Positions 10,747-38,800 of a DNA stretch of 64,000 bases are shown here, in pieces. Where the stretch lies: positions 1,550,001 to 1,614,000 of the forward strand of contig NZ_CP035928.1 in assembly GCF_004214795.1 (NCBI RefSeq), in the 5' to 3' direction. How positions within the stretch are numbered: position 1 is the first letter of the stretch; each line of letters opens with the position of its first letter. Source of the stretch: Malaciobacter pacificus (GTDB lineage Bacteria > Campylobacterota > Campylobacteria > Campylobacterales > Arcobacteraceae). A program made the translations under genes and the position numbers. The notes under the pieces are model-generated. The model ran no database searches, had not been told where the DNA came from, and saw only the letters and a list, made by a program, of their open reading frames with translations.

Positions 10747-10753
10747 CTAATAA

Positions 10754-15356: not shown

Positions 15357-15775
15357 GTGTTACTAAGTGGTGCACTTTTGCACTGCATATTGGTGCATTT
15401 TTGGTTTGCACTTGACATTTGTACAAATATAAAAAATGTAAAAGATAAAATACTATATAAAATTGACGACATAATTATCATTGAAAATTTAAAATATTTA
15501 AATCTAGAAGAGTTTAAAGAATATTCGATTGGAAATGAAATTTTTTATATTTCACCAACGTTTACTTTAAGAGATATCGATTTATTTATAAGTATATTGA
15601 AAAATACTAATTATACTAATGAAATCTAAACTATATATAATATTATACAAGTGCGATTACTTTAATACTTATCATAAAGAATCACTCAAATAATATATTT
15701 CAAATTGTAATATTTTTAATTACATTTTTTAATTAAAATATAATAAAAAATAGTAAATTCTTTTAAAGGCTTTAG
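15357..15775 (+). other. Region with a doubtful short reading frame (to 15629)
   Basis: A possible frame of 90 codons begins inside the IS21 tail with TTG-type starts and no ribosome binding site. From about 15430 it reads NIKNVKDKILYKIDD and then GNEIFYISPTFTLRDIDLF, which looks protein-like. It may be the 3' end of a host gene whose front was lost when the IS elements fused. From 15630 to 15775 I see only AT-rich spacer with TATAATA-like sequence, which probably holds the promoter of the next gene. No function is proposed. Confidence 0.35.
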
Positions 15776-17291: not shown

Positions 17292-18601
17292 TAATTCTCC
17301 GTTAAAGCATATTGTTTAGTTTTAATCAATGGTTTTAAAAGATAAGTCATTATTGTTTTTTGTCCCGTTTTTATATCTGCACTTCCTCTCATTCCTGGCA
17401 TTATTTCAAGAGGTTTTGCATCAGTTCCTAAATAGTTTTTATTTGTTTTAATATAAACTAAATAATATGTATTATTCTCTTTATCTGTTACAGAGTCTGG
17501 AGAAATTTTATCTATCTTCCCATCTAAAGAACCGTAAATAGTAAAATCGTATGCAGTAAATTTTAGTGTCACTTTCTGTTCTGGATGTAAAAAAGCGATG
17601 TCTTCTGGTTTAATTTTAGCTTCAATTAATAAATTATCATCTTTTGGAACTATCTCTATTAAATCCATAGCAGGTTGTACAGAACCTCCAATAGTATTTA
17701 CATGCATTTTTTTAATATAACCTGTAACAGGAGAGATTACTAATGTTCTGTTAACTTGATCTTCTAAACCTTGATTTTGTTTTAAAGACTGTTCTATTTT
17801 TGCAATTACTTCATTATATTCTTTATGAGCATTATTTTGAAATTCTATTTTTGCTTCTTTATATCTATTTTTATACTCTTTTACTGATGAACTAATTCTA
17901 GTAAGTGATAATTTAACCGATTCTAATTCATCTTTAATAGTATTAGCTTCTCTTAAAAGTTTTAGATATTCAACTTTTGAAACTATACCTCTTTTTACCA
18001 ATGGATCCATAACTTTTTGTTCTTGAATAATCAAATTGAAACTCTGTTCTAAATGTCTAATTCTTGACCTAATTTCATTTTTTTCTTTTTCTTTTTGAGA
18101 TATTTGCTCATCAAAAACTCTTAGCTTTGAATCAAGTTGAGACAAGTCACTTTTGTACAATTCATACTCTTTTTGATAAATATCATTATTTTTATCAAAT
18201 AAAAATTCTTTATTATTTGCTTCTGCGTAAAGTCTATTGCTTCTTGCTTTTAAAGATTCTATTTCTAAAATATTCTTCTCATATGTTGAAGAATATTGCT
18301 TATTTTTTAATTTTAATAGAACATCACCTTTTTTTACTAAATCACCTTCTTCTACTAAAATATCTGTAATAACTCCACCTTCAAAATTCTGAACTATTTG
18401 ATTCTGACCATAAGGTATAACTTTACTCTCACCTCGTACAAGTTGATCAATTTTTGCAAAATATGCCCAAATTAAAAAAAAGACAACTAATAAAACAATT
18501 ATATATAATAGAACTTTTGTACTATTAGGTACTTTCTCTACTAAAGCTTGAGAAACAGAATTAATATAATCATAATCTGAAGTTTTATCTATTTCTTTCA
18601 T
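17291..18601 (-). CDS. Type I secretion periplasmic adaptor (HlyD/LapC family)
   Basis: A 436-residue membrane fusion protein that links the ABC transporter in the inner membrane to the TolC-type outer membrane channel. A single N-terminal helix (about 28-48, LLYIIVLLVVFFLIWAYF) is followed by a lipoyl half-motif (GGVITDILVEEGDLVKKGD), a long coiled coil (about 100-270), the second lipoyl half (VISPVTGYIKKM) and a beta-barrel domain ending PGMRGSADIKTG. The order is canonical for the family. It lies two bases after the ABC transporter gene and is part of a six-gene minus-strand operon. It exports the giant adhesin, as judged by neighbourhood. Confidence 0.93.
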   Translation of the reverse strand: MKEIDKTSDYDYINSVSQALVEKVPNSTKVLLYIIVLLVVFFLIWAYFAKIDQLVRGESKVIPYGQNQIVQNFEGGVITDILVEEGDLVKKGDVLLKLKNKQYSSTYEKNILEIESLKARSNRLYAEANNKEFLFDKNNDIYQKEYELYKSDLSQLDSKLRVFDEQISQKEKEKNEIRSRIRHLEQSFNLIIQEQKVMDPLVKRGIVSKVEYLKLLREANTIKDELESVKLSLTRISSSVKEYKNRYKEAKIEFQNNAHKEYNEVIAKIEQSLKQNQGLEDQVNRTLVISPVTGYIKKMHVNTIGGSVQPAMDLIEIVPKDDNLLIEAKIKPEDIAFLHPEQKVTLKFTAYDFTIYGSLDGKIDKISPDSVTDKENNTYYLVYIKTNKNYLGTDAKPLEIMPGMRGSADIKTGQKTIMTYLLKPLIKTKQYALTEN

Positions 18602-18603
18602 AG

Positions 18604-20760
18604 CTATTCTTTACTCCTATTTGCCAAAGCATTAATAACATAGTTTTTTTCACCATCTAAAACTATTTTTCCATTATCTACAACTATGATTCGATCCACT
18701 AATTCAAGCATAGAACTTTTATGAGTAGTTAATAAAACTGTTTTGTTTTTTATCTCTTCTTTTAGAGCATTAATCAAATTTCTTTCTGTAGTAATATCCA
18801 TACTGTCTGTTGGTTCATCTAAAAGTAAAACCGAATAATCCCCAACTAAAGCTCGTGCTAAAGAAATTGCTTTCTTTTGACCACCAGATAAAGTATCTCC
18901 TCTTTCTCCAACGTATAAATCAAACCCTGAAGGATGTGCATTTACAAAGTCTATAAGTTGTGCTGTTTTAGTTGCTTTAATTAAAACTTCATCGTTTTCA
19001 TAAGGATATTTATACAAAATATTTTCTTTTAATGTTCCATTAAATAGTAAAGTATCTTGAGATACGTATGCGATATTTTTTCTAACATCTGAAGGTTCTA
19101 TTTGACTTAGTTCTATTCCATCTAAAATAATTTCACCCTCATTTGATTCATAAAGTTTCATAAGAAGCTTCATAATAGTTGATTTACCAGAACCAATTTT
19201 TCCTATAATTGCTACTTTTTCACCTTTTTTAACATTAAAACTTATTGAGTCAAGCACTTTTTTACTTTCATCATAAAAAAAAGAAACATTCTTAAACTCA
19301 AAATCTCCTTCAATATATTCTTTATGGATTGCTGCTTTATTTGATTCTCTTTCCACTGGAATATTCATTATATTATCTAACATATTATATGAAGTTTTTG
19401 CTTGTTCATAATTACTAATAAGTGAAGCTATTTGCCCAATAGGTGCAACAGCTCTTCCTCCTAAAATTACAGCTGCTATTAAACCTCCTAATGTTAATTC
19501 ATTCTCACCAATTGCATAAACACCATAAATAACTATAAAAATAGTAGTTAGTTGTACAAAAAAAGCATTTATATTAGTAATTGAAGTAGTTAACATTTTT
19601 GTTAAAAGAGATTTTGTTGATATATCAGCAGTACTTTCTTCCCATTTCCATCTTAAATGTCCAGATGAACCTAAACTTTTTAAAGTCTCTAAAGCATTTA
19701 AACTTTCAATTAATATACCATTTTTGTAGGATATTGACTCATTTGAAGACTCTATACTTTTCTGTAGTGGGCCTTTTATAAATAATGAATAAAATAAAAT
19801 TAAACTAATAAATATTATAGGAACAACAACGATACTACCTGAAATATAAAAAATTGCAATTAAAAATAGTATTATAAATGGTAAATCAACTAATACTGCA
19901 ATAGTAGAACTCGAAAAAAAGTTTTTAATTAACTCAAAGTCTTTAATATTATTTGCAAATGCTCCAATTGATTTAGGTTTATGCTTTAGCTTAATATTTA
20001 AAATTTTATCAAAAAGTTTTGAAGAGACAATAATATCAATCTTCTTAGAGCTTATATCAATATAGTAAGCTCTAATAAACTTGGTAACTAGATCAAAAAT
20101 ATAAACTACACAAATACCAATAGCCAAAGCCCATAAAGTTTCTATAGCAAAATTAGGTACTACTCTATCATATACATTCATAACAAAAAAAGGTGTTAGT
20201 AAAACAAATATATTAATCAAAATTGAAGCTATAATAACATCTTTGTAAATTGTAATGTTCTTTTTAACAGAACCCCAAAACCAATGTTCATCATTAGCTT
20301 TTAAAATATTCGGTTTTATTTCACTTTCAAAATGTTCTTTTTTTAATAAAAACATTTCACCAGTATATAATTCTTTAATCTTTGATAAATCAATCTCTTC
20401 TTTTGTTTCATCCATATCAAGGACATGAATAATAGCTTTTTTAGTATCTAAATCAATTTTTTCTAATATACAAGAAGTACTATCTTTTAAAATAATTATT
20501 GCTGGTAAATGAAGTTCAGATATATCTGAAAATTTTTTCTTTGTATATTTTGATTTAAAGCCAGACTTTTTTGCTACTGTAATAAATAGTGGTTTATTAT
20601 TATAAATAGAAAGCATATTAGGTATTTTTTCATTAGGTTTTACAGGAAAACCTTCTATTAAAGTATTGAAACTAATTGACTTATGGTAATATTTTAAAAA
20701 ATAGTATAAATTATCTAATAAAGAAGCAGATAATTTATTATTATCTAAATTTTTAAACAT
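18604..20760 (-). CDS. Type I secretion ABC transporter (LapB-like, C39-like N-terminus)
   Basis: A 718-residue permease-ATPase. Residues 1-130 form a C39 peptidase-like domain without the catalytic Cys, as in transporters of RTX and Lap proteins, where it serves as a substrate dock. About 165-440 is the transmembrane domain. The ATPase has Walker A GKIGSGKST, Q-loop AYVSQDTLLF, signature LSGGQKKA, Walker B VLLLDEPTDSMD and the switch His in LLTTHKSS. It overlaps the LapD-like gene by eight bases and precedes the adaptor gene by two, so the subunits are made together. No mature export channel is complete without the TolC-type protein 5' in the operon. Confidence 0.94.
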   Translation of the reverse strand: MFKNLDNNKLSASLLDNLYYFLKYYHKSISFNTLIEGFPVKPNEKIPNMLSIYNNKPLFITVAKKSGFKSKYTKKKFSDISELHLPAIIILKDSTSCILEKIDLDTKKAIIHVLDMDETKEEIDLSKIKELYTGEMFLLKKEHFESEIKPNILKANDEHWFWGSVKKNITIYKDVIIASILINIFVLLTPFFVMNVYDRVVPNFAIETLWALAIGICVVYIFDLVTKFIRAYYIDISSKKIDIIVSSKLFDKILNIKLKHKPKSIGAFANNIKDFELIKNFFSSSTIAVLVDLPFIILFLIAIFYISGSIVVVPIIFISLILFYSLFIKGPLQKSIESSNESISYKNGILIESLNALETLKSLGSSGHLRWKWEESTADISTKSLLTKMLTTSITNINAFFVQLTTIFIVIYGVYAIGENELTLGGLIAAVILGGRAVAPIGQIASLISNYEQAKTSYNMLDNIMNIPVERESNKAAIHKEYIEGDFEFKNVSFFYDESKKVLDSISFNVKKGEKVAIIGKIGSGKSTIMKLLMKLYESNEGEIILDGIELSQIEPSDVRKNIAYVSQDTLLFNGTLKENILYKYPYENDEVLIKATKTAQLIDFVNAHPSGFDLYVGERGDTLSGGQKKAISLARALVGDYSVLLLDEPTDSMDITTERNLINALKEEIKNKTVLLTTHKSSMLELVDRIIVVDNGKIVLDGEKNYVINALANRSKE

Positions 20761-22678
20761 CAGCTACCTCAATTGTATCTACATATCTTCCCTGTAAATA
20801 TTTAATCCCTAAATCTTTTAATAAATCAAATTCTTCTTTTGTTTCAACATGTTTTACTATCAATTGTGCACCAATAGTTGAAGTAATATTAATTAGAATA
20901 CTATCTGTAATTCTATTTTCATTACTTACAATATATGATTTAGATATTTTTATATATTGAGGCTTTAAATCTTTTAAGTAATCTAAATTATCACTGTCAA
21001 AAGTAAAACTTTCAATTGCAAATTTATGTTTTGTAGTTTCCAACTGTTTTGTAAAGTATTTAAAATCATCAATATTACTTAATATATCTGCATTAATACA
21101 CTCAAAATAAAAAGTTATAGGTTTATTAATAAAACTTTTATTTAATTCTTCTATAAGCCATTGAACACTTACTTTATTTGAAATAAAATCAGATGTTAAA
21201 TTAATTACCGCTTTATCTTCTATTGTAGATTCTTTTTTTGTTTGGAAAATCTTTTTAATAGTTTGTTTTTCTAGTTTTCCTAACCATCCCATAGACCCAA
21301 CAATAGACCAAAAGTCACCTGGAGAATAAACATTTCCGTCTTTATCCTTAAGTCTAGTGTAATACTCTTTCATATACAAAGTGTTATTTGTAATATTTAA
21401 AATATTTTGAGAATGGAAAAATAATCCATCATAATCAAACGCCCATTGAAGTAATTCTATCCATTCTTGTTTCGTAAATTTAATATCATCTTCTAAGTAA
21501 TTTAGTTTTAAATCATTTTTTTGCATTGCTATTGATAAAGACTGGTCTGTTTTAGACATAACATCTTTTAGTGATGTATTTTGAACATAGTTAGATATAC
21601 CAACTGCAACTTTTAAATCAAATACTTCATTTAATTTGTTTGTTTTAATATAATCTTGAATATTTTTATAAATATTTTCAAATTTTTTACTAACATCTTC
21701 ATAATGTGTATTTGGTAGTAATATTGCAATTACACCATCATCAAGTTTACATAAAATAAAATCTTTATTTGATTTAAAGCCATTATCTAATTGTTCAATT
21801 ATAAATGTTTTAAATGAAAAATAACTTTTAAATCCAACTGTTTTCTTAAAGGAAATTTCATCTTTAATATCAACAAAACCTAATAAACCATGAGAATTTT
21901 TAAGATATGAATTTAACTTTAGAAGTAAGTAATTTTTATTACCCAACTTAGTATCACTGTCTTTATATAGAAGTTCGTTATATTTATTTAATGTTTCTAC
22001 TTCTTTATTAAAAATAGTCTCCATTTTAGAAATAGTTTTATTCATTGCAAGTGCTACATTCTTGAACTCTACAGTATTTGGAAGCTCTTTTTCAATTATA
22101 AATTCATTATTATCAATAGCTTTGGCCTGAATACTTAATCTATTTAAAGGTCTTAAAATTTTATTTATAAAGAAATAGAATACTATTAACAATAAAATAG
22201 TTGAAAAAAAGAAAATTTTTGCAATTGATTTAAATGTGTTCCACATTTGATTATTAGCATAGTCCTGATGAACTTTTACTTCTAGACTACCAATATTAAT
22301 CCAACCATTCATAATATTTGAATTAAAGTTTGGTGCATTAATAGCAAAAATATTTGAAAACCATTTAGGTGTTTTTTCTAATTCTCTTGGTGATGAAATT
22401 TTTATAACTTCATTATCATCAATATCATAAACAGCAATATACTCATAAAAACCATTATCAATAATTGAATTAATCATCCCTTCCATTGTAGAAGTATCTT
22501 TAAAATCAACATCTCTACTTATAGATAATCCTAAAAAAGATGCACTATTCTTTGCATTTGAACCTAATTGATTTTCAATTAAATTTTTATTGTAGCTTAA
22601 AATAAACCACAAAAGAACTGTTGACATTAAAACTAAAAAAATAGTAATTAAAATTGTTAACTGCTTATATAAACTCAT
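20753..22678 (-). CDS. lapD: LapD-like c-di-GMP receptor (degenerate GGDEF-EAL)
   Basis: A 641-residue inner-membrane protein. Helix 1 (about 7-28) and helix 2 (about 152-174) flank a periplasmic LapD/MoxY-type domain, which includes the GWINIGSLEVKVH stretch. A HAMP region (about 175-225) follows, then a GGDEF fold whose signature position reads LDDGV, and an EAL fold whose EAL motif is lost (KEYYTRL). The late EAL segment reads VKHVETKEEFD. With both catalytic signatures gone it should be a receptor, as LapD is: c-di-GMP in the EAL domain lets the periplasmic part hold LapG. It overlaps the LapG-like gene by four bases. The symbol is by homology of architecture. Confidence 0.88.
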   Translation of the reverse strand: MSLYKQLTILITIFLVLMSTVLLWFILSYNKNLIENQLGSNAKNSASFLGLSISRDVDFKDTSTMEGMINSIIDNGFYEYIAVYDIDDNEVIKISSPRELEKTPKWFSNIFAINAPNFNSNIMNGWINIGSLEVKVHQDYANNQMWNTFKSIAKIFFFSTILLLIVFYFFINKILRPLNRLSIQAKAIDNNEFIIEKELPNTVEFKNVALAMNKTISKMETIFNKEVETLNKYNELLYKDSDTKLGNKNYLLLKLNSYLKNSHGLLGFVDIKDEISFKKTVGFKSYFSFKTFIIEQLDNGFKSNKDFILCKLDDGVIAILLPNTHYEDVSKKFENIYKNIQDYIKTNKLNEVFDLKVAVGISNYVQNTSLKDVMSKTDQSLSIAMQKNDLKLNYLEDDIKFTKQEWIELLQWAFDYDGLFFHSQNILNITNNTLYMKEYYTRLKDKDGNVYSPGDFWSIVGSMGWLGKLEKQTIKKIFQTKKESTIEDKAVINLTSDFISNKVSVQWLIEELNKSFINKPITFYFECINADILSNIDDFKYFTKQLETTKHKFAIESFTFDSDNLDYLKDLKPQYIKISKSYIVSNENRITDSILINITSTIGAQLIVKHVETKEEFDLLKDLGIKYLQGRYVDTIEVADV

Positions 22679-23310
22679 ATTTTTCCTTCATTTATATTTC
22701 TTATTAATTTTCTAAACTTTAAACTTTGAGATGCTTTAAATTTACTTTTTTGATTTTTATTTATACCCGCACTTTTTGCTGAAAAACTGTAAATAGGAAT
22801 TATATCTGGTCTTTTTGTTGCAGGAAGTGCTTTGTAATTAATTGAATCTAATATAATAGGTATTGATTTTTTTGTTTTATAGTATGTTAAAACCATATAA
22901 GATATTTTTTTTTGTTTTGATTTAACATAGGTAAAGAATAATTTACTACTATCAATATTTAATTCATTTACTAATGTAAAATATTTAGCAAAAACAAAAT
23001 CTTCACTATCACCCCTATCTTTTGCTAAAAACTCATATGGTGTTGCCCAATAATCCTTTTTATTCCATATTTTAGAATCAGAATCATATTTTACTTTATT
23101 AAAAAAAGCATTAATTACTTTTAATTTTTCAAAATCTGATTTTTTCTTTACGCTATTAATTTTTTCTTTTAAAAGTAGAAATCTATTTGTAGTAAATTTT
23201 CCATATTTAGCATTTATCTTTTTTAAAATCGTATTCGTGTACAACTCTTTTGAAACAAGAGTTGTGCATACTATAATAACTATAAAAAATAATACAAATG
23301 ATTTTTTCAT
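22675..23310 (-). CDS. lapG: LapG-like transglutaminase-fold protein lacking catalytic Cys and His
   Basis: A 211-residue periplasmic protein with an N-terminal signal segment (about 1-20). It aligns with the LapG family: WATPYEFLAKDRGDSED, then SYMVLTYY, ILDSI and KRPDIIPIYSF. In active LapG the triad is Cys-His-Asp, in GDCED, HMVL and LD. Here residue 102 is Ser (codon AGT at 23005-23007) and residue 138 is Tyr (TAT at 22897-22899), while Asp155 remains. Each change is one base from the ancestral codon. The spacing of the three positions (36 and 17) is like LapG (38 and 17). Without His a Ser nucleophile would not be activated, so proteolysis is unlikely. It may bind LapD or the adhesin without cutting. 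Confidence 0.88.
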   Translation of the reverse strand: MKKSFVLFFIVIIVCTTLVSKELYTNTILKKINAKYGKFTTNRFLLLKEKINSVKKKSDFEKLKVINAFFNKVKYDSDSKIWNKKDYWATPYEFLAKDRGDSEDFVFAKYFTLVNELNIDSSKLFFTYVKSKQKKISYMVLTYYKTKKSIPIILDSINYKALPATKRPDIIPIYSFSAKSAGINKNQKSKFKASQSLKFRKLIRNINEGKI

Positions 23311-23317
23311 TTATTTT

Positions 23318-25162
23318 CTACTTTACACCCCATAAATTTTGAACTTCACTTGTATCAAGTTGTTCTTTAGTATCTTTTATTTTTGTATTAAACTGAATTT
23401 CATCAACTTCAACACAAGTAATTCCTTGACATCCATATATATTAGTTTCTGTTTTAGCAGAATTATCACATTGATCTTCACAATCTAAAATCTTATCATT
23501 ATCTTGGTCAACATAAGCTAATAACTTATCTTCTTTATACTCTTCTTTAAACTCATGCCCAAATGATTTATATAGCTCTCCCATTGCATCCAATACTCTA
23601 TACTTGGCAAAAATTAAATCATACTTATTATGTATAACTTTTATCTTAATATTATTTACCTCGTCTTGAACATCAAGTAAATCAATAAGGGTTCTTCTTC
23701 CTAACTGAAACTCTTCATCATAAGCAATTTTTGTTTTTGCAGTTAAGTCTCTATAATCAATTTGATACTTATATTGTTCTTGTATCATTTTATATGCACT
23801 CCAAGACAAGCCTAAAGATTCAATAACATCTCTTTTTAATTTATTTTTATGTGCGTACTCATAGTTTAATAAACTTATATATTTTTGTTTTTCAGCTTTA
23901 TGAGCACCACCACTATATAAATTATAATTTAAAACTAGCATAGCACTTAAATCATCTTCTCTACCAACTGATGAACCAGTTAAATTATTATACCTTGACC
24001 CTTGCAATTCTAAATCTAATGTAGGATAATCATTCTTCTGAACGTACTGTAATGATTCTTGAATAGCTTTTATATCATAATTAGCTACTAAAATAGATGG
24101 GTTATTGTGAATTGCAATATCGTTAGCATGTTCTAAAGTCTTAGGTAAAGTACCATTAAAAGTTGGAGGAACTAAACTATTCTCATCCACATATCTACCT
24201 AATGCTTTATGAAAGTTGAATTTTGCATCAATTAAATTATTAGTTTCCGATACATAATTTGATTTAGATAAAGCTAGTCTACCTTTAACTCTCTCAACTT
24301 CACTTAATGTGCTAAACCCTTTTTCATATCTATCTTGGATTTTTAGAAGTGTTTCTTCATGTACTTTCACATTATCTTTTGCAATATTAAGAACTTCATT
24401 ATATCTTACAACTTTAATATATGATTCAATTGCTCTATACATTTTATCTTGAGCAACTTCTATGTATTTATTAAAAGCAGCTTTTGCTCTTGCTTCATCT
24501 CTATTTACTGCAGCTTTTGTTCCAAAACCATTAAATAGATTTTGAACAAGTTTAAGAGTGATTTCAGATGTATCATATCTATCTCTTTCACTACCTTCTT
24601 TTTTAGTTTCTTTTATTCCTGTTTTACCTATTAAGTCTATTGTAGGGTAGTTACCAGCATCTGAAATATTTATATCTTCTACAATTGAATTATATTGAAA
24701 TAACTTTTCTTTAATTTCTGGATCAGTATAAATAATCTCTTTTAGCATATCTTCAAGAGTAAAGGTATTTACTATTAACACCTCTTTATCTTTATTTAAA
24801 TCTTTTTTATCTATCAGTTCATTTTTATCAAAAGTCTCTGCATTGCTATTGATATAAGCGGTTGGAAAATCATTTTTTAGCTTTGATAAAACTATTTTAG
24901 CTTCAGATAGATATTTAAATGGTTCTATTGCTAAAATATGATAGTTTCCTGACGGTCTTACTACAACATTGAAAGGATATTTATCTTTTTCTGCGCTTAT
25001 TTTCCCATTAATGTCTTTTAATAACAAATCATATTTAGCCTGAGCTTTACTACTATCTTGAAAGCTTTCTAAAACTATTTTTTTATAATTCTCTGCAACT
25101 GCTACCTGTCCTAAAATCAAACAACTCAATAAAACTTTTTTTGATAAAAAAACCTCTTTCAC
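23318..25162 (-). CDS. TolC-family outer membrane channel with SPOR-like and calcium-motif ends
   Basis: A 614-residue protein with a signal peptide (about 1-23, ending QVAVA). Residues 25-105 resemble a SPOR peptidoglycan-binding domain. The outer membrane efflux domain (about 125-545) shows the usual two-fold repeat, with the repeated RYEKGFSTLSEVERVKGRL and DEEFQLGRRTLIDLLDVQDEV segments. The C-terminus (about 555-590) carries a thrombospondin type 3-like motif, DQDNDKILDCEDQCDN, like those of the nearby OmpA-like protein. The start is GTG behind GGGAGAG. It is the first gene of the secretion operon and ends seven bases before the LapG-like gene. The role is the outer-membrane exit channel (LapE-type). 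Confidence 0.9.
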   Translation of the reverse strand: MKEVFLSKKVLLSCLILGQVAVAENYKKIVLESFQDSSKAQAKYDLLLKDINGKISAEKDKYPFNVVVRPSGNYHILAIEPFKYLSEAKIVLSKLKNDFPTAYINSNAETFDKNELIDKKDLNKDKEVLIVNTFTLEDMLKEIIYTDPEIKEKLFQYNSIVEDINISDAGNYPTIDLIGKTGIKETKKEGSERDRYDTSEITLKLVQNLFNGFGTKAAVNRDEARAKAAFNKYIEVAQDKMYRAIESYIKVVRYNEVLNIAKDNVKVHEETLLKIQDRYEKGFSTLSEVERVKGRLALSKSNYVSETNNLIDAKFNFHKALGRYVDENSLVPPTFNGTLPKTLEHANDIAIHNNPSILVANYDIKAIQESLQYVQKNDYPTLDLELQGSRYNNLTGSSVGREDDLSAMLVLNYNLYSGGAHKAEKQKYISLLNYEYAHKNKLKRDVIESLGLSWSAYKMIQEQYKYQIDYRDLTAKTKIAYDEEFQLGRRTLIDLLDVQDEVNNIKIKVIHNKYDLIFAKYRVLDAMGELYKSFGHEFKEEYKEDKLLAYVDQDNDKILDCEDQCDNSAKTETNIYGCQGITCVEVDEIQFNTKIKDTKEQLDTSEVQNLWGVK

Positions 25163-25291: not shown

Positions 25292-26784
25292 GAGCCGCTT
25301 GCAAATTCCACCATCATAAACTAGTGAATTTGTAAACCTACTAAACTTATCAAGCAGATCTTTTAAACTTTTAATCATTTTACCGCTTTATGAGTCAATT
25401 TTAGATAAAAAACTATTATTGGGTGCGTGCTTGATGGTTGAGTTTTAAAAATGGCTAATTTTTAGTGTTTTTAGCTAAAAGTTATGTTACCAGTTTCAAA
25501 CTCTGATGAATACAAACTGATAAAATACCAAATGCTAAAACAGAAGCTACTTTTGTAGCTCCTTTATAATAAATATTACTGCATCCAAAGTCTTCTTTGA
25601 GGTATTTATTGACTCTCTCAACCATACTTCTTTGATTATAGTGATGGGTATCTAAACTTTGAGTAAGGTTTAGAATTTTAAATTTCTTTTTTTCATCTTT
25701 TATAAGTTGAATTTTTTCTTTTAACTCTTTGGAGTTCTTCGGATTGATATCAATAAGCGGTCTATGATTTAGTTTTTTGGAAAAATCTCTGATAATATTG
25801 CTGTCGTATCCTGCATCTTGTAAGTCATAAAGATATGATACTTTTTTGCTTGTCTCGTTTATAAGAGGAAGTGCTACTGAGCTATCATGAACATTTGCCC
25901 CTGAATAAATAGCAGTAATAGGGATATCTCCATCTACTACACTGATATGGAGTTTCCCTCCTATCCATGTTTCAAAGTTGCCTTTGGAATTCTGTTTTCT
26001 TCCAACTCCACACTGCGTTGATACCAAAGATAGCATCTGCTTTGTGGTTTTCATATCTTCTTGTTGCTGCAAGATACTGGGTGTTTTAGGCTCTCTTGTT
26101 TCACCTTTTTTAGGTCGTCCTCTTCTTTTTGGTTTAAACTTTTCTTTTTCTACTTTTACAGGTTTTTCTCTCAGTGGTATTTTTGTTGCATCACTTGCAT
26201 TATAAAAAAAGAGTGTATCCCTTAGATACTCCTTCACAAACTGCTCATGCGTCTTTTGTGCAATTTTAAGCTCACTGAGCTCCTTAAAGACTCTACTAAA
26301 TTTAGACTCACTTGGAATATCGTTTTTATATCTCCACCCACACAAGATCCTCAGCGTTCTATCACTATGAAGTCTATCGATAAGGTCTCTGGTTGTTTGG
26401 ATATTGTAAACACTCTTTGCAATAAATGCTCGTGCAATCTCTTCTCTATGCTTTGGAGTGTTTGTAATAGATACGACAGTGATATTTTTTTCAATCGCAG
26501 CAAAGTCTAATATCTTAATAAGCTTTTGCTCTTTATTTGACAACTCTTCTAATTGAAGCTCTCTTTTCAAAGAAGGAAAAAGTGAATTTTCAAGATTTAA
26601 AACCTTAGTCCACATTTTAGATAGACTTGAAGATATTTTTGGTAGAATAATTTCCATAAGTTGAATCGCTCTTCTGTTAAATTTTTGTAGTAAAAAATTA
26701 TAACTTATCTGAAGTTTGATTCAACTTTTTAAAATTTAAATCAGCTTAAATTACGGGTTGTTTTTTATAATCTGCAAGTGGCTC
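25292..26784 (-). mobile_element. IS5/IS1182-like insertion sequence
   Basis: A 1493-bp element. Imperfect 16-bp ends GAGCCGCTTGCAAATT (25292) and the complement of GAGCCACTTGCAGATT (ending 26784) match at 14 of 16. TATT is present on both sides (25288-25291 and 26785-26788), a 4-bp target duplication. Between the left end and the transposase stop lie about 190 bases with no gene. It sits between the decayed two-component genes and the secretion operon and may have separated a once longer transcription unit. Confidence 0.88.
25482..26657 (-). CDS. DDE transposase (IS5/IS1182-like)
   Basis: A 391-residue transposase, apparently complete. The N-terminal part has the helical IPSESKFSRVFKEL segment common to this group. 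The first catalytic Asp is in YNASDATKIPL, then a basic KPKRRGRPKKG insertion, the second Asp in LQDAGYDSNIIRD, and the Glu in YNQRSMVERVNKYLK. It ends about 190 bases from the left inverted repeat. The precise family (IS5 or IS1182) cannot be settled by eye. Confidence 0.85.
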   Translation of the reverse strand: MEIILPKISSSLSKMWTKVLNLENSLFPSLKRELQLEELSNKEQKLIKILDFAAIEKNITVVSITNTPKHREEIARAFIAKSVYNIQTTRDLIDRLHSDRTLRILCGWRYKNDIPSESKFSRVFKELSELKIAQKTHEQFVKEYLRDTLFFYNASDATKIPLREKPVKVEKEKFKPKRRGRPKKGETREPKTPSILQQQEDMKTTKQMLSLVSTQCGVGRKQNSKGNFETWIGGKLHISVVDGDIPITAIYSGANVHDSSVALPLINETSKKVSYLYDLQDAGYDSNIIRDFSKKLNHRPLIDINPKNSKELKEKIQLIKDEKKKFKILNLTQSLDTHHYNQRSMVERVNKYLKEDFGCSNIYYKGATKVASVLAFGILSVCIHQSLKLVT

Positions 26785-26830: not shown

Positions 26831-27512
26831 TTATTGCTTAATTAGCATTTTATAGCCAATACCATATACATTGACTATAATCCCTTTTAATAGCTTCTTT
26901 CTTAAGTTTTTAAAGCATCAACTTTGTTAAATTCGTAATCAAACCATATCTCTTCTATAATAGTTTCATATGACAATACTTTACCAATATTTTCAATAAA
27001 TAATTTCAAAATTTTATTTTCTTGAGGAGTTAAAATACTGATACTTTTTGATTATATAATTCATTAAGTTCAAGATTCCAAATAAAATCATCATCTAAAA
27101 CCACATATTTTTTCATTTTAGTTTCAAACATTTGTATTTCTTCATTTACAATATTTAAAGCATCTTTTATTTCATTTCTAGTAATAGGTTTTACAAGATA
27201 TTTTGTTAACTTAAGTTCTGTAGCTTCTAATAAATAATCAACCTCTGAGTGAGCAGTTAAAATAATAGCTCTTGTTGAATGATCAGTCTTTCTTATCTTT
27301 TTTAGTAGTTCCAAACCTGTCATTTTAGGTAAATTAATATCTACAATTAAAATATCTGGATTAAGTTTTTTATAAAGGTCATAGGCTTCTATTCCATCTC
27401 TTGCTTCATAAACATTTTTATAATATTGACTTAAGTATCTAACATAGTTTTTTCTAATTATATCTTCATCTTCAATGAATAGCATTGAATATAACTTCTT
27501 TTCAGTATTCAC
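26831..27512 (-). pseudogene. OmpR-type response regulator, broken by two frameshifts
   Basis: The first frame gives an intact receiver (about 1-130): FIEDED, phospho-acceptor in IVDINLPKMTG, ILTAHSE, and Lys in YLVKPI. It then stops at VSVF. A second frame continues the winged helix (ILTPQENKILKLF, YETIIEEIWFDYEF, ending LKT). A third frame supplies its end (LKNLRKKLLKG, VNVYGIGYKM) up to a TAA at 26831. So two indels, near 27040 and 26910, disrupt the DNA-binding domain. The receiver can still be made, but DNA binding should be lost. The ATG overlaps the kinase stop by four bases. Confidence 0.85.
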
Positions 27513-29066
27513 TTTTCATCTTCCTCTTTTAATGTTATAATAAAATTTGCACTTTGATTTCTATTAACAACTTTAATACTTCCATTCATTGTTTTCTCTA
27601 AAAGTTTTCTAGATATATATAGTCCTAAACCTGTACCAACATTTGGATGTTTAGTTGTAAAATAAGGTTCAAATATTTTATCTTTTATTTTCTCATCAAT
27701 TCCACCTGTATTATCTGAAATACTTATTATACATTCTTTATTTATCTTTGTAACTTCTATCACAACTACACCTTTTTTTATTTTTCTTAAATTAAATGCA
27801 TCTTTTGCATTATTAAGAACTACTAGTAATACTTGCTGCAAATTATTAGGGAATCCTTTATAAATTATATTTTCTTTATTGTATTTTAATATTAAATCTA
27901 TATTTTCATATATAAAAGCAGCATCTACTATCTCAATAGATTTTTCAATAGTTTTTATTATATTAAACTTTGTTTTAGTTTTATCAACTGATACAAAATT
28001 TTTAAAATCATCAATTGTATGTGACATATATTTTGTCATTGTTTCAATTTCATTTAGTTTTGTATTAACTTCAAGATTATTAAAATTAGATTCACTTAAA
28101 ATTTCATCTATAACTAAAATCGAAGAATTGATTTGAGATAAAGGTTGTCTCCATTGATGTGCAATATTTTCTAGCATCTGCCCATTGAAACCATTTTATT
28201 TTGCTGGAACAATAGCTTATCTTTATCTCTAGATTTTTCTAACTCTATTTCAACCATTTCTTTTAATTTCATAATGTCTATAAATAAAAAATATTGATAT
28301 CACTAAGACTATAAATACAATCATGTATAATAAATTATTAACAATTTTATCTTTTTCTTTTTTTGTAATCGAAGTTACAGCTTTAGATAATATTGAATGT
28401 AAAACAAGTTCATTTTTAACTATACCCATTTTATAAGAGTTTTCAATACCAATTTTTAACGCAATTTTTATGTTTGGCAAATTTAATTCTTTCATTTTGT
28501 CAACTGTTCCTAAAAAAGAACCTATTGTTGCAAATATTTTTCCTTCAGATACCATTTCTAAAGCTTCATTCATAGATGAAACATATTTTATTTCAACATT
28601 TATATCTAAGTTTTCTTCCTGTTCAGGAGTTATAAATATATTGAACATCATTTTTTGTGACTATTACATCTGGTTCTGTATACAAGGTAGGTGTAAAATT
28701 TAGGAACTCTTTTCTCTTAGTTGTTTCATTTAAAAATGGCAAAACTTGACATTTTTTATTTTTGATAAACTCTAAACTTTCTATCCAACTTTCTGTAACT
28801 ATTAATTCAAATTTTTTATTAATTTTCTTTTCTATTAATTTAATAAATTCTGATACTAATCCTTCATATTTATTATTTTTTATTACTTCATAGGGTTCCC
28901 AATTTGGATCAACACACATTTTAATTGTCTTCAAACTATCTAGATATTTTAACTCATCATAATTAAAAGAAATAAACTGTTTTTCGTCTTTAGTCAAATC
29001 AAGTTCACTAGAAAGTACTTGTAGTGGGATTATTAAAAAGAATAAGATATTTTTCAGTAAGTTCAT
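27509..29066 (-). pseudogene. Sensor kinase with solute-binding domain, broken by three frameshifts
   Basis: Four consecutive frames reconstruct one kinase. Part 1 (29066-28623): signal peptide and the first half of a type 3 solute-binding domain (CVDPNWEPYEV). Part 2 (28651-28250): the second half (EGKIFATIGSFLG), and a membrane helix (LLYMIVFIVLVISIFFIY). Part 3 (about 28270-28180): the linker KLKEMVEIELEKSRDKDK and QQNKMVSMG. Part 4 (28177-27509): histidine box NIAHQWRQPLS and ATPase motifs (VLNNAKDAF, GTGLGLYISR). Breaks lie near 28640, 28260 (an A tract) and 28180. It resembles the IS-interrupted kinase at 8.4-12.8 kb but with one binding domain. Its place inside the adhesin locus suggests it once regulated it. 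Confidence 0.85.
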
Positions 29067-29121: not shown

Positions 29122-29790
29122 CTATTTTTTTAAAACAGCAACAACTCTTCTGTTATTTGCTCTTCCCTCTGCCGTATCATTTGTATCTATTGGACTTAAC
29201 TCTCCAAATCCTACTGAATTTAATCTCTCTTCTTCAATTCCATTTTCGATTAAATATGCTTTTACTGAGTCTGCTCTATTTTGTGATAGTACTTCATTAT
29301 ACTTCTCACTTGCTCTACTATCTGTATGTCCTTGAATCTCTGCGTTATATTTTGGATGTTTTTTCATAAATTCTATAAATGTATCTAGTCTTTGTGTAAA
29401 GTTTGAGTCTACTATATAACTATCTCTCTCAAACAATACTTTTAAATCAACTAACTTACTACATCCTAATTCATCTACTTCAAATCCTGCTGGCGTATTT
29501 GGACATTGGTCTATATTATTTAATACTCCATCTTTATCATCATCACCTATTACAACTGGTTTAGGCTCTTCTTTTTTCTGGCAACCTTCTTCTTTACAAG
29601 GAATTGTTTCTAAACAATCATCTTCTGTATCAATAATACCATCACCATCTACATCTTGATTTACAATAATTCCCCTCTCCTTATTCTCATACTCATTCTC
29701 AGATGTATTTGGTCCACTTACTGCTGATACCATTCCTGCGTTTAAACTTACCATTGCCCCTAAAGCTAATACTACTAATAATTTTTTCAT
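29122..29790 (-). CDS. OmpA-family protein with calcium-type thrombospondin repeats
   Basis: A 222-residue exported protein. The signal peptide spans about 1-19. Residues 45-105 hold two thrombospondin type 3-like motifs, DVDGDGIIDTEDDC and DDDKDGVLNNIDQCPN, that normally bind calcium. The C-terminal OmpA/MotB domain (about 110-222) shows the peptidoglycan-binding signature: IQGHTDSRASEKYNEVLSQ, then RVVAVLKK after GRANNRR. There is no N-terminal beta barrel, so it is probably a periplasmic or lipid-free linker to peptidoglycan. It begins 20 bases after the adhesin stop, with a GAGG ribosome binding site, so it is likely co-transcribed and may anchor or gate adhesin export. Confidence 0.9.
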   Translation of the reverse strand: MKKLLVVLALGAMVSLNAGMVSAVSGPNTSENEYENKERGIIVNQDVDGDGIIDTEDDCLETIPCKEEGCQKKEEPKPVVIGDDDKDGVLNNIDQCPNTPAGFEVDELGCSKLVDLKVLFERDSYIVDSNFTQRLDTFIEFMKKHPKYNAEIQGHTDSRASEKYNEVLSQNRADSVKAYLIENGIEEERLNSVGFGELSPIDTNDTAEGRANNRRVVAVLKK

Positions 29791-29810: not shown

Positions 29811-32800
29811 TTATATTATGTTTATGTTTATATCTTGATCTATTTTTAACGTAACACTAGCATCACCTATATTTGTATAAGTTTTATTACCATCACCATC
29901 TACAACGTTATTAGTTGACCATGTTTTACCAGCTTCATTTACTAACTGAACATTATCAGAAGCATCTCCAAGTATCTCCAAATCATTATCACTATCTGTC
30001 ATATCAATAACATCTTGTAATGAAAGTCCTGTAATATCATGATCTCCATTTTGAGTTAAATCTATTTTTTCTATGTTAGAAATATTTGATACATCTGATA
30101 AGTCTATACCACTATCTAAAACTAAAGTATCAGTTCCAGTTCCACCATCAACAGTATCACTTCCATCAAAGTTTATAGTATCATTTCCACCATCACCGTT
30201 TATAATATCAGCTCCTGCTCCACCATCAATAGTATCAACTCCATTTCCACCATTTAAAACATCATTTCCTGAACCACCATTGATTTCATCATCTCCACCT
30301 TGACCATTTATAGTGTCAGCATTACTGCTACCTTGAATAATATCATTATTTGCTGTTCCATCCATATCTTCTGTTGTATCAACAGTAGTATTTAAAGCAA
30401 CATTTGAAACTGTTGTTTCACTTGATTTACTTCCATCATCAAGTTCAGAATATGCACTTACATTAATTGTATTAACTGTACCACTTGTAGTTGTAGAAAC
30501 TAGTTTTAAATTTCCATTTGAAAGTGCTGTAATCGCATCAGCGTAATGGCTATCAGTTGCACTTCCAATATCTACTATCCAATCACTTCCAACTTTTGTA
30601 GCTGTTACTCCTGTCAAGTTTGAAGCATCTACATCAAAAGAATTCCCTAATCCAGATAGTTTTACAAATAAAGACTCACTTCCATCTTTATCTAATAAAT
30701 CTAAACTATCTATAGTTAAAGATATTTCATATCCAGAACTTACAACATTTTTACCACTTATTGTAGTATTTACTTCATTTCCAACTGTACTTGTAAATGA
30801 AGTTACCCCACTTGCTTTTGATTCAAGTTCTATGTCAAAAGTTTTCCCTGTTATTTTTGTACTAGTGTCATTATTTGAGCTTTCCACAGTCCATGCGTCT
30901 ACTGTAATTGTACCACCTTTATATCCTGTAGGTGTTTGAATATAAAGTGAGTTTATTTGATCATATGGAATATTAGCAACTGTATATTTTCCTGTATCAC
31001 TATCATAACTAATATTACTAGCTGCTATTGTCGTACTACCATTATCTAAACTAAATGTAGTTCCATCAGGAAGGTTAGTAAACTCTACATAAACTGTCTC
31101 ACTTCCATCTACATCTTTAACATTAGTATTTAGGTTTATTTTAGTCCAAGGAGAACTACTATCTACATACTCATCACCTAAGGCATCAGTAGGATTAAAA
31201 GAAATCAACTCATCTGCAACAGGGTTGAATACAATATCAAAATTCTCAGTTACTGTATTATTAGGAATACCTGTTTCTCCATAACTTATACTCAATTTTG
31301 CATCTGAAATTGTTCCATTAAAATTCTCAACACCAACTTTTTCAATACCAATTTTTGCAATATCTGTCGTTATGTCACTAATACCAAGAAAACTATACTC
31401 ATAAATATAATCACCATTAGCATCTACACCAACAGGAGTTCCTGTAACTTCAGCTCCATCATAAGTAACTTTATATCCAAAAGGTATATCTTTTAGTATA
31501 ACACTTGTTATTGACTCTGTATTATCATTTAATTCAACTGTGTTAGGTAAAGAGATGTTTACAACTTCATCTTCATTTCCATTGGCACTTGGATTAAAAT
31601 CTGTAATATCATCATTGACAGCTTTTATATCATAAGTAGCTGTTTGACTTGATAATAAAGTTTGCGTTGTATAAGGGCTTGATTCTGGGTCTTCTTTAGA
31701 TATAGTGTAGGCTTTTATGTCTATTACATCTTGAGCAATCACATTTGTATTAGGTGTGTATTTTATACTTAAAGAGTCTGTATAATCAACATTTTCTATT
31801 ACATAATAATCTCCCGCAGGTAAAGAGTTGCCTTGATCATCACTCACACTATTTGCAGCTATTGTTGTAACACTTGGTAGGGTGAAGTTATCTCCTACAA
31901 ATGTACCACCATTACCATTATCAGAAAGTTGTAAATAAACTTTTCCATCTATTATTTGAGTTCTTGTTCCATCTGCATCATTACTTAATGATATTGTGAA
32001 TACATTATCACTACTATTTTCATCAACATCTGAACCTGATATATTTATAACTGTTTCATCTGTAACAGGGGCTATTTGTTTATCTAAAGATAAATCATAT
32101 GTATTTGTATTATTTGTTCCTATAGTTTCTATAGAAAAATCAAAAGTTACATTTGAAAGCGTGTTTATATTTTCATTAGAATTTGGTGTTATAGTTATTG
32201 ATTCTAATGCTGTTTGAATATCTGTATACGTTCCATCTCCAGGAAGAGAGTAAAAACTATTACCATTTTGTGTGATTAATTGCATACCAGAAATTGTTGC
32301 TCCATTTAAGTTTGAAACTAAAATAACGAAATCACCAGTGTCATTACCCACTATCCCATCTGCTACTTCTACTAAATCACTCAATGGTGTTCCTCTATCT
32401 TCAGTAAGATTTGTTGGTATTTTTTCACTCACTTCTAAATCAATAGGTGTAATATCCCCTGTATCAGTATTGCTAAAAGTATCTCCATCTATTACTAAAG
32501 TAAATGTTTGTGTATTTGTTAGAACATCTGCTCCTACATCTTGGTGGGAAATATTAATTGTAATTTCTTGATTTATATTAGGATAATTTGTATTTCCAAC
32601 TTCAAATGATATTTTATTTACCTCACCTAAAACTTGATCCAATGTTAAATCATCGCTTATCTCAACACTCCAGATACCATTTCCATAATATGTACCATCA
32701 TTTACATAAATTCCACTTGGTACATTATAAAGAGTAACGGTATTACTTATTGTTTCACTATCTAAATCTTGTCCATTTGAACTTTCACTTGCCATATCAT

Positions 32801-35800
32801 CAGCTGTTAAATGAAGTGGCACTTGGAATTTTGTATTTGCATTTACTGTAACTGTTTGAGTTCCACTATTATAAGTAATATCATTAGTACCGTCACCGTC
32901 AATATCTGTAAATTCATCTAAAGTAAATGTTGCTGTATCAGTTACGGCATTTACTGTTACATTATATGTAGCTGTTGTGTAGTTTGTATTTGTTGAATCA
33001 TAAGTACTATCACCAATTGTTGTATCAGTATAAGAAGAGCTATCATTTGTTGTATCACTCATAGTGTATCTAATTGGGAAACTATAATCTGTATCTAAAT
33101 CAGCAGGTATTGAAGCTGTGATAACATCACTATCAACATCTACATTTACCCATCCATTACCAGTAATATCTATTCCATTTTTAAATAGGCTAACTCCAGT
33201 TAAACTAATACTATCAGTATCGATTTGAAGAGAAGTTAGAGCTTCATTTGAATCACCACCATTGTTAAAAGCAAAAGCTAATGTTTGTATTGTATCTTCA
33301 TTTTGAGTTGTATTTTTATTGATACTTCCATCAATTTCTGGAGTTACTAAAATCGAAGTATCTACTGTAGTAATTGTTGATTTGTTTCCATCATCTTCAA
33401 TTGTTTGAAGTTTTAATTTTATACTATTTACTTCTCCACTATAATTTTCAGGAATTACTAAAGTCACACTATCAAAGTTATCTTTTTCAACTAACCACTC
33501 TCTTGATGTACCACTACCACTTAATAAAACAGCAGGAGATGAGATATCAAATCCTGCAGGCACTCCTGTAATAGTTACAAACAATGACTCAGAACCATCT
33601 GTATCAACTGAAGTAAAGTTTGGAGTACTTGAGTCAAATAAATCTTTTAATAAAATAGAATCTGTATCTTCTGCAACAATTTTATTGTAAGTATTTGAGT
33701 TGCTATTTGTATCAGTTATTGTTTCTGTTGCAAGAGTAGCATGAGTAGGCTTATCTCCTACACCTTTAACATTTACTAAAACATCTAATCCATCTGCAGG
33801 AATAAAAGATGTATCATCTGTGATATCATTTCCATCCACAGTAACAGCATCTGTTGATTTTGCTTGTACATTTAATGTGATATTTTCATTTGAATTTTCT
33901 TCTGGAACATATCTAAGATCTCCTGCATTATCAAATGATTCAATATCTAATGTCCAAGTTGAACCAGGACTTGGGTTAGTATATAAAGTACCATTATAAT
34001 ATATCTGTGCTCCATCTGGAATATCATTTAATCTTAAATCATATGTTTCAGAATCATCTGCTGATGTAATTCCTATATTTAAAGGAATCCCACTTGCTCC
34101 ATTATCATTTCTACCTGCATCTTCATTTCCAAATGACTGTTTTATTGCAACAGTTACAGTATCAGCAACAGGTTCAACAATGATAGTCAAAGTATCTCCT
34201 GAGCTTGTTTGAGTATTAGCAGTTTCTTTTCCAGAAGCATCATCATCATAATCAATTGATTTAACTTCAGTAGTCAATACTAGTTTTCCACTGTATTCAG
34301 CTGGTGCTTTTACTTCTAAGTTAGAAAGTTCAGATACTGGTATCTCTATTGCTGTTCCATTATATGTTAGTTCTGTAGTTCCATACTTAAATATAGTACC
34401 ATCTAATTCATTTCCACTTCCATCTTTTGGAGTAAATAGTACAGTTGTTGTTTCTACACTATCTTCATTTGTTAAAGATAGAGAAAAGCCACTATCTGCT
34501 GTATTTAAATCAAAAAATTCATCTTCATTTGCTTTAGTTGTATAAGTATGATTACCTTGAGTAATAATATCTTTTCCAACTGTTCCAGCAGTATCACTAT
34601 CTGTTCTTTCTGCAACTGGAGTAACTATAATATCAAAGGTATTTGTTTTAGTATTTGTTTGAGCATTAAGATCTTCATCTGTTACATCTTCTATAGTTAA
34701 ACTAAATACTAAATCTTCTAAATCTGCACTTGAATGAGCTGGCGGTAGAATTTGAAGACCTTCAATTAATGCCTCTTTTTGGGATTCATTTAAACCACTA
34801 AAGTCTAAGATAAACTCTGTGTTTCCATTATCAGCACCTGTACTTGTATTATCAAATAGTAAATTATCACTTGAATCATATATCTTTACATCTGATGGTA
34901 AACTCGATATCTTAGCACTTGATATTGTTTCACTTCCATCATCATCCCTATTCATATCTATACTAATATTCATATCTATTTTTGTATCTTCAGAACCAGT
35001 GTTTCCTGCACTATTTATCCTAGAATCATTTGCATCTGGTGTGAAAGATATGCTTACAGTACTTTTAGACTCATCATATCCCAATTCAGATATTGACTCG
35101 TGAGTGGAAGGTAATATTCCAGTAGGTATATTTGACCAATCATCTTCATAAGATATAGCAAACACATCAATATCAACACTTCCACTATAATCTGAAGGCA
35201 TCTTAATTTGAGCAGATGTAAATTTATCTTCTGGTATCTCAGCAACATATTTTCCATCTTGAAGTGTAAAGTTAGTACTTGATTTTCCACTATATTTAAA
35301 TGTAGGAATATCTCCATCTGGGAATTCAGTTTTTGCTATTTCAAGTCTTATTATATGAGTTTCACTACCATCACTACTATCTCCAAAACTTTTTGAAGTA
35401 ATAAATGAATCTATATCTAACCAAGTATCTTCATCTCCAGTTTGACTAGTAGTTCCAATTGTAGTATCATCTGCAACACCACTTATATTTATATCTTGAT
35501 AAAGAGTAAACTCTTTTGTATCAAGTAAGTCTGTAGTACCATCATGTTCTTTATCAGTTGTAGAATCATTGTTATTATCAGGAGCATCTGTAACTGTAAA
35601 AGTATATTTTAAAGTATTATCTACATTTGTATCTGCTACAGGTATATATTTTACGTTTGTTGAATTATTTGCAACAAGAATAGTTACAGATGTATTTCCT
35701 GAACTTGCAGTAAATGAAACATCTGCATTGCTACCATCTTTATATTCAATAGTTGCACCAATAGCTATATCGCTTATAGTAATTTGTGAAACATCTACAT

Positions 35801-38800
35801 TCTCTTCACTTCCATCACTTTCTCCAAGGTGTGCATTTGGATTTGGTATTGAAAGGTCAAGCTTAACTGTACTATCTTCTTGCCCATCGCTATTACCATC
35901 AATTAAATTATCTTCATTTATATCTAAATCAGTTAATTTATATTTCCCACTCTCTAATGTTGCACCAATACCAACATAATCTATATCATCAACTATTGGT
36001 AAAACATTTATATCTACTGTACCACTTGCTGTATCACCATCATTATCTGTTACAGTATAATTAAAACTAGGTGTTCCACTATAATCAGCTGTTGGAGTAA
36101 AAGTTAAAGAACCATCACCATTATTTGTTAAAGTACCTATAGTCTGACTTGTTGCATTTTCTATATTTCCAGAAAGAGTAATACTTCCTCCTGATGTAAT
36201 AGTTGTTGCACTAACCGTTACTGCATTACCATTTTGATCAGTTGAATTACCTACAGTTATACCTCCATTAAATGCTTCATCTGATAAAAAGAAAGTAACT
36301 GCAGTATCTTCATTAGTACTTATTATTGCAGGACTTGCTTCTGGAGTTGAATCCACAATAGTTACATCAAAATTTGATGTTGCTACATCTCCATCACTAT
36401 CAGTAACCTTATATCCAAATGTAATTGTTTTATTTACATCATCAGCTCCACTATGATCAATTTCATTATAAAGTTTAAAATCATAATTGGCACTAGCACT
36501 TGTAGTATCATTTAAATTTAAAACAAAAACTGTGTTAGCATTAGTTATAGCAGTATCATCATTTGTAGTTGCTGCAGTTAGTGTATCTCCATTTAAATGA
36601 TAATACACCGTATCTCCAGAACTTGTTAAGCCACTATTTTGTTTATCAGTTATTCCATCAAATGTAACAACTATACTATCTTGAAGTTTTGTTATTCCAA
36701 GACTTCCTGTAGTATCCGTTCCATCTGTAGTTGCATCAACTATAACAGAATTTCCTGTAAGCCCTTGTAAATCATTTTCACTAACACTCATATCTTCATT
36801 TGCACCAATACTTGGTGCTGTATCCATGATAGTAATATTTTGAGAACCAGTTACACTAGCTTCATCACCTTCAACATCTTTTACAACATATGTGAAATTC
36901 AAATCATCTAATATATCATCACTTCCACTGGTACCTGGATGTGAGAAACTTGATGGAGGTGTATACTCCCAATTTCCATTATAATAAACTTTAAGTGTTC
37001 CATCTGCTGCTGAAGTAACTGTATTTGAACCATCTTCTAAAATAGTTTTAGTAGTTCCTGCAAAAGTAAACTCTACTATTCCAGCTTTATCTGTTCCTTG
37101 TGTAAAGTTAAGTATGTGTTCATTGGCTGTAGTTGAAAAAGGTATAGTTTCACTGTAACCTGATGTGTTATATGTTGTATATGTTTGAGTGGTATTATCA
37201 AATACTATTTTACTATCACCCTCTTTTACTACAATATCTGGATTATTTATATTATTTACAACTGGATCAGCACCATCTAAAATATCTATATATTGAGTAG
37301 CAGAACTCTCATCACCATCATAATCTTCAATAGTATAATCGAAGTTAGCATTAACATTTCCAGAACTATTATCTACACTTGCATTTGGAGTAAATAACCA
37401 ATCTCCATTTTCCCAAACTTTTAATGTTCCATTAGCTGTAGTAACTTTTTTATAAGCTCCATTAGCATCTGTACCATCATCACTTGTTCCAAAAGTATAT
37501 GTTTGGTTTGTGTCATATGTAAAGTCAACTAGTTTTAAATTACTATCAGCTCCTCCAACATCAGCCCCATCATCATTTATGTTTGTTATGACATTACCAC
37601 TTATAGCACTTGCATTTTCTACCACTGTTTTAGGAGTTGATTGATTATCATTTTTAGCTTCTGGAATATCATCTATTATATTTACAATAAAACTTCCATC
37701 TGCTTTACTTCCATCTATATCTATAACATCATAATTAAACGTTAAAGGTTTTGTATTTTGTCCATCTGCATTGTCATGGTCTATTACACCACTTAATACA
37801 AAAGTGTGTTTAGCTGACGCTGCTGTAGTAGTACTTAAAGTATCAGTAAATATTGTATTCCCTGAGTTTACTCCACTTTCAGTAGATGATGTTGATGCGG
37901 TTAAAACTTTACTAGTACTATCTAACCAATAATATATTTGACTTCCATTACTTGTAAGTCCACTAACAGCACCTTCTGTAATATCAAAGATAGTATCAAA
38001 AGCATCTTGACCTGCAGTTATCTCTAATGATGATTCAACAGTTAATGCGTTATTATCTGGAGAAGTTCCAATTGTAGGTAAATCATCTTCATCTACACTT
38101 ACGGTTGCTACTGTACCTACTTTAGGTGTAGTGTCCGTAACTGTTATAGTGTTTGTAGCACTATTTGAAATATCGCCATCACCATCTATAAGCGTGTAAG
38201 TAAAACTTCCTAGTGTTCCTGAATCATCATGGTCTACAGAACTAATTGGTGTAAATTCCCATGAACCGTCTTGATTTACTTTTAAAGTACCAGTTGGAGT
38301 TGTCAAATCAATCCCAAAGTTAATAGAATTAGAAACTGTAGCACCAGTACCATCGGTATAAGTAAAATCTTTTAATACAGCTCCATCAGCACCTTGTGTA
38401 TCATTAGTAATTACATTTCCAGTAACTTTTACAGCACCTTCTTCTACTGATTTACTATCATTTACTGCTGTTGGTCCATCATCTAAGAACTCGATATCCA
38501 ATGCATTTGTACTTGTTGTTGTTACACTATCATTATCTTGATCTGTGATTGTTTGTACTACTTTGATTCCTGCAGCATCTAGGTTTAACTCATCATTATG
38601 ATTACTTCCTTCTAAAGGATGATCTAACTCCTCTTTTTGGATAACTATAATCTCACCTGTTGTTGCATTGATTGCTACACTAAATGCTTCTGTAGTCCCA
38701 GCTTTACCTATATATCCACCATTCCCATCTGATTCTAATACTATCTCATTTGCATGGGCTTGATCACTTACTAGGAATAAACCTGTATTTACTGTTGTTG

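Follow-up and report, generated by a model that had tools for sequence, protein, structure and literature searches.

The window, a 64,000-nucleotide stretch of the Malaciobacter pacificus genome, carries on its minus strand between 26831 and 29066 the remains of a sensor kinase gene and an OmpR-type regulator gene, both split between frames in a three-frame translation and both lying within a locus for a giant RTX adhesin and its T1SS. From the comparisons set out below we conclude that this is probably a true pseudogene pair and that its loss is real, local and fairly young, a reading to which we give a probability of about 0.85.

Anatomy of the broken pair

The two pseudogenes and their lesions are:
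27512..29066, minus strand: sensor histidine kinase pseudogene in four frame pieces, delimited by translation, Pfam and frame-aware alignment
26831..27512, minus strand: OmpR-type response regulator pseudogene in three frame pieces, with the receiver intact and the wHTH broken
28582..28660, minus strand: kinase lesion 1, with about 32-50 nt (net) missing from the sensor domain and a change of frame, from piece coordinates compared with G091, G068 and others
28174..28270, minus strand: the second and third kinase lesions, both small frame changes lying between the TM segment and the H-box
26905..27051, minus strand: regulator lesions 4 and 5, a small frame change before the wHTH and a 13-nt deletion within it

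The kinase pseudogene reads, in order, as a signal peptide-like start, one SBP_bac_3 (venus-flytrap) domain, a TM segment, an H-box and HATPase_c. SBP_bac_3 (PF00497) was found at 47.7 bits in the N-terminal piece, as in a periplasmic sensor domain, and Pfam placed HATPase_c in the last piece; three frame changes part it from the start of the sensor, and no single frame holds both domains. In the regulator, Pfam found the receiver domain in the first piece, the wHTH is spread over the two other frames, and the OmpR/PhoB combination of receiver and Trans_reg_C in one frame is missing.

Frame-aware alignment to the intact orthologue in a related genome, G091, located five frame changes in 2.2 kb (2236 nt), three in the kinase at about 28.58-28.66, 28.25-28.27 and 28.18 kb and two in the regulator at about 27.03-27.05 and 26.91 kb, which together with the translation confirms the five frameshifts that an initial annotation of this DNA had described. 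No further nonsense codons were found in the parts of the pair that align to G091. In the window, 46 nt separate the first kinase piece from the second, compared with 96 in G091 and 78 in G068 by piece coordinates, and the size range of lesion 1 reflects this variation between the relatives taken as reference. The 13-nt stretch missing from the DNA-binding wHTH is bounded in G091 by near-repeated short words at both ends, a short direct repeat of the kind that usually marks a deletion by slippage, which may be how it was lost. The other three frame changes are of single-base scale. Two of the five lesions are multi-base deletions and so not homopolymer miscalls. The initial annotation had put some of the indels in A or T runs, and such runs do lie at some of the places, but the two multi-base deletions are not run slippages. 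By eye, the catalytic motifs are kept in the fragments (H-box, N- and G-boxes of the kinase; Asp and Lys of the receiver), so that either the decay is young or some fragment could still act.

The adhesin locus and its relatives

The locus around the pair is made up as follows:
29811..53978, minus strand: RTX adhesin of 8055 aa in an uninterrupted 24-kb frame
29122..29790, minus strand: OmpA-family protein, intact
25292..26784, minus strand: insertion sequence B, with a 391-aa DDE transposase, imperfect terminal inverted repeats and the 4-bp direct repeat TATT
23318..25162, minus strand: OEP/TolC-type outer-membrane gene, intact
22675..23310, minus strand: LapG homologue (Peptidase_C93), an open frame with catalytic Cys replaced by Ser, His by Tyr, and Asp kept
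20753..22678, minus strand: LapD homologue (LapD_MoxY_N, GGDEF, EAL), intact, periplasmic Trp kept
18604..20760, minus strand: T1SS ABC transporter, intact
17291..18601, minus strand: HlyD-type adaptor, intact
16683..17291, minus strand: LuxR-type (GerE) regulator, intact, found in most related loci

The surrounding genes are indeed intact, as had been claimed: the eight adhesin-locus neighbours (33 kb; 33321 nt in total, including the 8055-codon adhesin) hold no break, and set against five breaks in the 2236 nt of the pair this gives p = 9.8e-7 under uniform placement.

When 104 genomes of the family were searched at the DNA level (E <= 1e-40), 13 matched the pair, the window's own among them. 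In 11 of the 12 others kinase and regulator are both open and adjoin the OEP, ABC and HlyD genes, and in the twelfth, G069, the match is a kinase located elsewhere. Intact orthologues, which the initial annotation had proposed looking for, are thus present in related genomes, for example in G091, where the gene order is that of the window (adhesin, OmpA, kinase, regulator, OEP, LapG, LapD, ABC, HlyD, LuxR) and where the intact pair consists of a kinase of 1037 aa with three SBP_bac_3 domains and a regulator of 229 aa. The intact regulator orthologue has Response_reg and Trans_reg_C by Pfam. The same place in G091 also bears out the assignment of the pair to the adhesin locus.

We further compared 53 related T1SS loci besides the window's, 40 taken by ABC protein score and 13 chosen earlier (11 of these for a match to the pair). 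An orthologous regulator, at 50% identity or more, is present in 16 of the 53, a lower bound in a sample that is not random, with several loci clipped by contig ends; the kinase is present and open in 15 of these 16, the contig of the other (L116) stopping before it. The pair is absent from the LapG/LapD locus of G094, where OEP comes directly after OmpA, and from that on contig 2 of G092, where the adhesin is followed by OEP, and the window's genome has another T1SS locus (L117, among the 53) in which there is no such pair either. Presence in 16 of 53 loci and absence from G094 and G092 indicate that the pair is an optional module, and since these two genomes have the same LapG/LapD locus and no two-component system, its loss is tolerated and not exceptional. 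As a pseudogene the pair is ordinary. That it was lost while the adhesin, the secretion genes and LapD stayed intact suggests a dispensable layer of giant-adhesin control, and the broken copy here set against the intact one in G091 is a natural experiment on what this layer does.

We propose that the remnant is very probably a former two-component system that served the adhesin locus. On binding a small ligand in the periplasm, the SBP_bac_3 kinase would have phosphorylated the OmpR-type regulator, and the latter, judging by its position, most likely governed the transcription of the adhesin/T1SS operon. In this strain both genes have lost function through the five frame-changing indels, two of them multi-base, which leaves kinase fragments that cannot join sensor and catalytic core and a regulator with no intact DNA-binding domain; insertion sequence B now also stands between the remnant and the secretion genes. 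Control of the locus would then remain with LapD, the c-di-GMP receptor, and with the regulator of LuxR type, both encoded by intact genes. As an optional module of these loci, the pair is one whose loss is tolerated, and this loss is a different event from the clade-wide change of the LapG catalytic residues, which came first.

BvgS and EvgS are sensor kinases with SBP_bac_3 (venus-flytrap) domains, and the kinase described here is like them in joining one or more periplasmic SBP_bac_3 domains to a histidine kinase core. Unlike BvgS, it is a classical kinase that has no receiver or HPt (Pfam found none in the G091 or G054 orthologues). Unlike BvgS and EvgS, it is paired with an OmpR-type and not a LuxR-type regulator, it is here a pseudogene, and its relatives carry anywhere from zero to three SBP_bac_3 domains. 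BvgAS also governs adhesins, according to the available portion of PMC11537037.

Other explanations for the loss

It is possible, though we think it unlikely, that a general erosion of the genome driven by a burst of insertion sequences broke the pair, with nothing specific to the adhesin. Beside insertion sequence B, separated by 46 bp from the regulator remnant and by 129 bp from the OEP gene that follows, the features concerned are:
9183..10746, plus strand: insertion sequence A, with perfect 14-bp terminal inverted repeats and a 7-bp target duplication
8404..12791, plus strand: paralogous SBP-SBP-PAS-HisKA-HATPase kinase, interrupted by insertion sequence A

Insertion sequences A and B are two recent expansions, with 29 genomic copies of A, most at 99-100% identity, and 14 near-identical copies of B (two adjoining pieces being counted as one in both cases). 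The flanks of the 8404-12791 kinase agree in frame and when joined give a frame of 939 codons with no internal stop. The initial annotation had called this related kinase broken, which it is, the cause being an insertion sequence rather than indels, and its statement that two similar sensors were lost holds. A further kinase at 59381-60394 (minus strand), of which only the last part of HisKA is left, abuts another copy of A, and the kinase at G000:2436.8k, in the window's genome, contains one. Of 43 copies, 18 have a kinase or receiver domain no more than 3 kb away, against 9.0 expected (p about 0.002-0.003, post hoc); A alone accounts for 10 of 29 (p about 0.06) and B alone for 8 of 14 (p 0.0025-0.005). 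The pair itself, however, was broken through indels and not by insertion, and neither coding density nor frameshift counts backed general erosion as the whole cause. Mean coding fraction in a sample of this genome was 0.904, similar to 0.892 in G091. The sample comprised 20 stretches of 20 kb each from both genomes, in which frameshifts were sought with a coding-frame hidden Markov model; as the model scores many overlapping genes as events, only events with no nearby start codon were counted, a filter that would also discard some true frameshifts. This genome gave 10 candidates and G091 gave 6, each over 400 kb, indicating no genome-wide excess in the sample, and 5 of the 10 show the two-frame layout of IS3-type transposases and look like programmed shifts of that type. 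Run on the window, the model recovered four of the five breaks.

A second alternative, which we regard as improbable, is that the pair still works in truncated form, a kinase core of 222 aa (27509-28177) and a receiver fragment (27030-27512) being made and acting as a split relay with no sensor. Both pieces are open and have start codons, and they hold the catalytic motifs named above, but the core begins barely ahead of the H-box, the output domain is gone, and conserved columns are changing faster than in the sister copy. For this comparison we took columns with at least 70% agreement among ten outgroup sequences and counted departures unique to the window and those unique to G091. These were, respectively, 15 and 8 in the kinase core, 15 and 4 in the receiver, and 6 and 1 in the wHTH, compared with 9 and 9 in OEP, 17 and 27 in ABC, and 12 and 15 in HlyD as controls. 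Pooled, the pair has 36 and 13 against 38 and 51 in the controls (Fisher p = 6.6e-4). The receiver is significant alone (p = 0.019), and the kinase core (p = 0.21) and wHTH (p = 0.125) alone are not. On this alignment evidence, the broken pair is changing conserved residues faster than its sister copy in G091.

That the breaks are assembly or sequencing errors and the frames are whole in the living strain strikes us as very improbable. The DNA is AT-rich, and with one genome of the species compared, the three changes on the scale of a single base might in principle be errors. Against this reading speak the sizes of the other two lesions (13 nt and about 32-50 nt deleted), an unbroken 24-kb frame alongside, the faster protein change in the pair and the lack of frameshift excess in 400 kb. 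The genome also has 63 matches to HATPase_c and 63 to the receiver domain, nearly all of which lie in long frames and few in unusually short ones. Genome-wide assembly noise is ruled out by these long signalling-domain frames, the frameshift counts and the coding density, and short reads would be unlikely to restore the frames at the two multi-base deletions. Phase-variable or programmed frameshifting can be dismissed for practical purposes, the A/T runs at some lesion places being all that favors it against five separate changes, two of them multi-base, and no long mononucleotide tract seen at these sites.

Apart from the pair, the copy of insertion sequence A beside the 59381-60394 kinase carries an rve (IS3-type) transposase gene at 61080-61910, and 15003-16312 on the plus strand holds what is left of an IstB gene of IS21 type, together with an RVT_3 (RNase H-like) fragment. 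A response regulator frame of only 185-189 aa, possibly truncated, lies near a copy of B at G000:C1:1170727-1171062 (L099 3542-4099).

LapG, LapD and the adhesin in the clade

The LapG homologue shares 77-80% identity with those of three relatives. Aligned to the solved structures 4u65 and 4fgo, it has Ser for Cys and Tyr for His at positions that we take to be catalytic and retains the Asp, leaving the triad incomplete. Among 54 LapG sequences, a subset of the family matches made up of the window's, those of three relatives and 50 from 51 loci (one has no LapG frame), C-H-D is found in 50 and S-Y-D in the four of this clade:
22675-23310, minus strand: LapG of the window
L025 12623-13258: LapG of a related locus
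L037 18916-19545: LapG of a related locus
L039 10475-11098: LapG of a related locus

LapD keeps the periplasmic Trp that presumably contacts LapG and has the expected domains, LapD_MoxY_N and EAL above their Pfam cut-offs and GGDEF at 21.7 bits, below its cut-off of 23.8. The first 260 aa of the window's adhesin lack the cleavage motif [TPA]A[AE][GV] (TAEG/AAAG-like). At the adhesin start this motif was found in 0 of 3 clade members against 6 of 9 from other loci, a contrast that is suggestive only, with few sequences and with one of the three motif-negative adhesins from other loci ending inside the region examined.

The initial annotation had joined the loss of the pair to the changes in LapG as a rewiring of adhesin control. 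The pair does appear dead, but the two changes are not one strain-specific event: S-Y-D is present in all four clade loci, that of G091 included, so the LapG change is older, and since G091 combines it with an intact pair, it preceded the loss of the pair. One could tentatively suppose, although we consider it somewhat doubtful, that the Lap system of this clade dropped adhesin proteolysis, with LapD sensing c-di-GMP and binding a dead LapG as a non-cutting clamp or plug on a motif-less adhesin, and with attachment set by binding and transcription; this strain would then have lost the transcriptional sensor pair as well. In the limited literature searched, no paper described a LapG without catalytic activity or, in Arcobacter, a two-component system within an adhesin locus. 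The protease-dead LapG found throughout the clade, next to an intact LapD, is of greater interest than the loss of the pair and merits its own study, as a LapG that is highly conserved yet without its catalytic residues would test whether c-di-GMP can control an adhesin without cutting.

The locus resembles the LapA/LapD/LapG system of Pseudomonas fluorescens in its giant RTX adhesin, T1SS, LapD with LapD_MoxY_N and GGDEF-EAL, and LapG-family protein. It differs in that the clade LapG lacks the catalytic Cys and His, the adhesin start lacks the canonical cleavage motif, and genes for the two-component system, OmpA and LuxR lie within the locus. The related T1SS loci cannot be described as lacking LapG/LapD, since in several of them this pair of genes lies about 10-13 kb away. 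The Dvh system of Desulfovibrio vulgaris is likewise a variant of Lap-like adhesin control outside the gammaproteobacteria, and as far as the available portion of PMC13090378 describes it, DvhG keeps the C-H-D triad, which that source names and which is altered in the LapG here, and DvhD differs in its domains from LapD, which here is canonical. The acidic residues flanking the Cys position are kept in the window's LapG; in the related DvhG the corresponding residues bind calcium, according to the same portion of PMC13090378.
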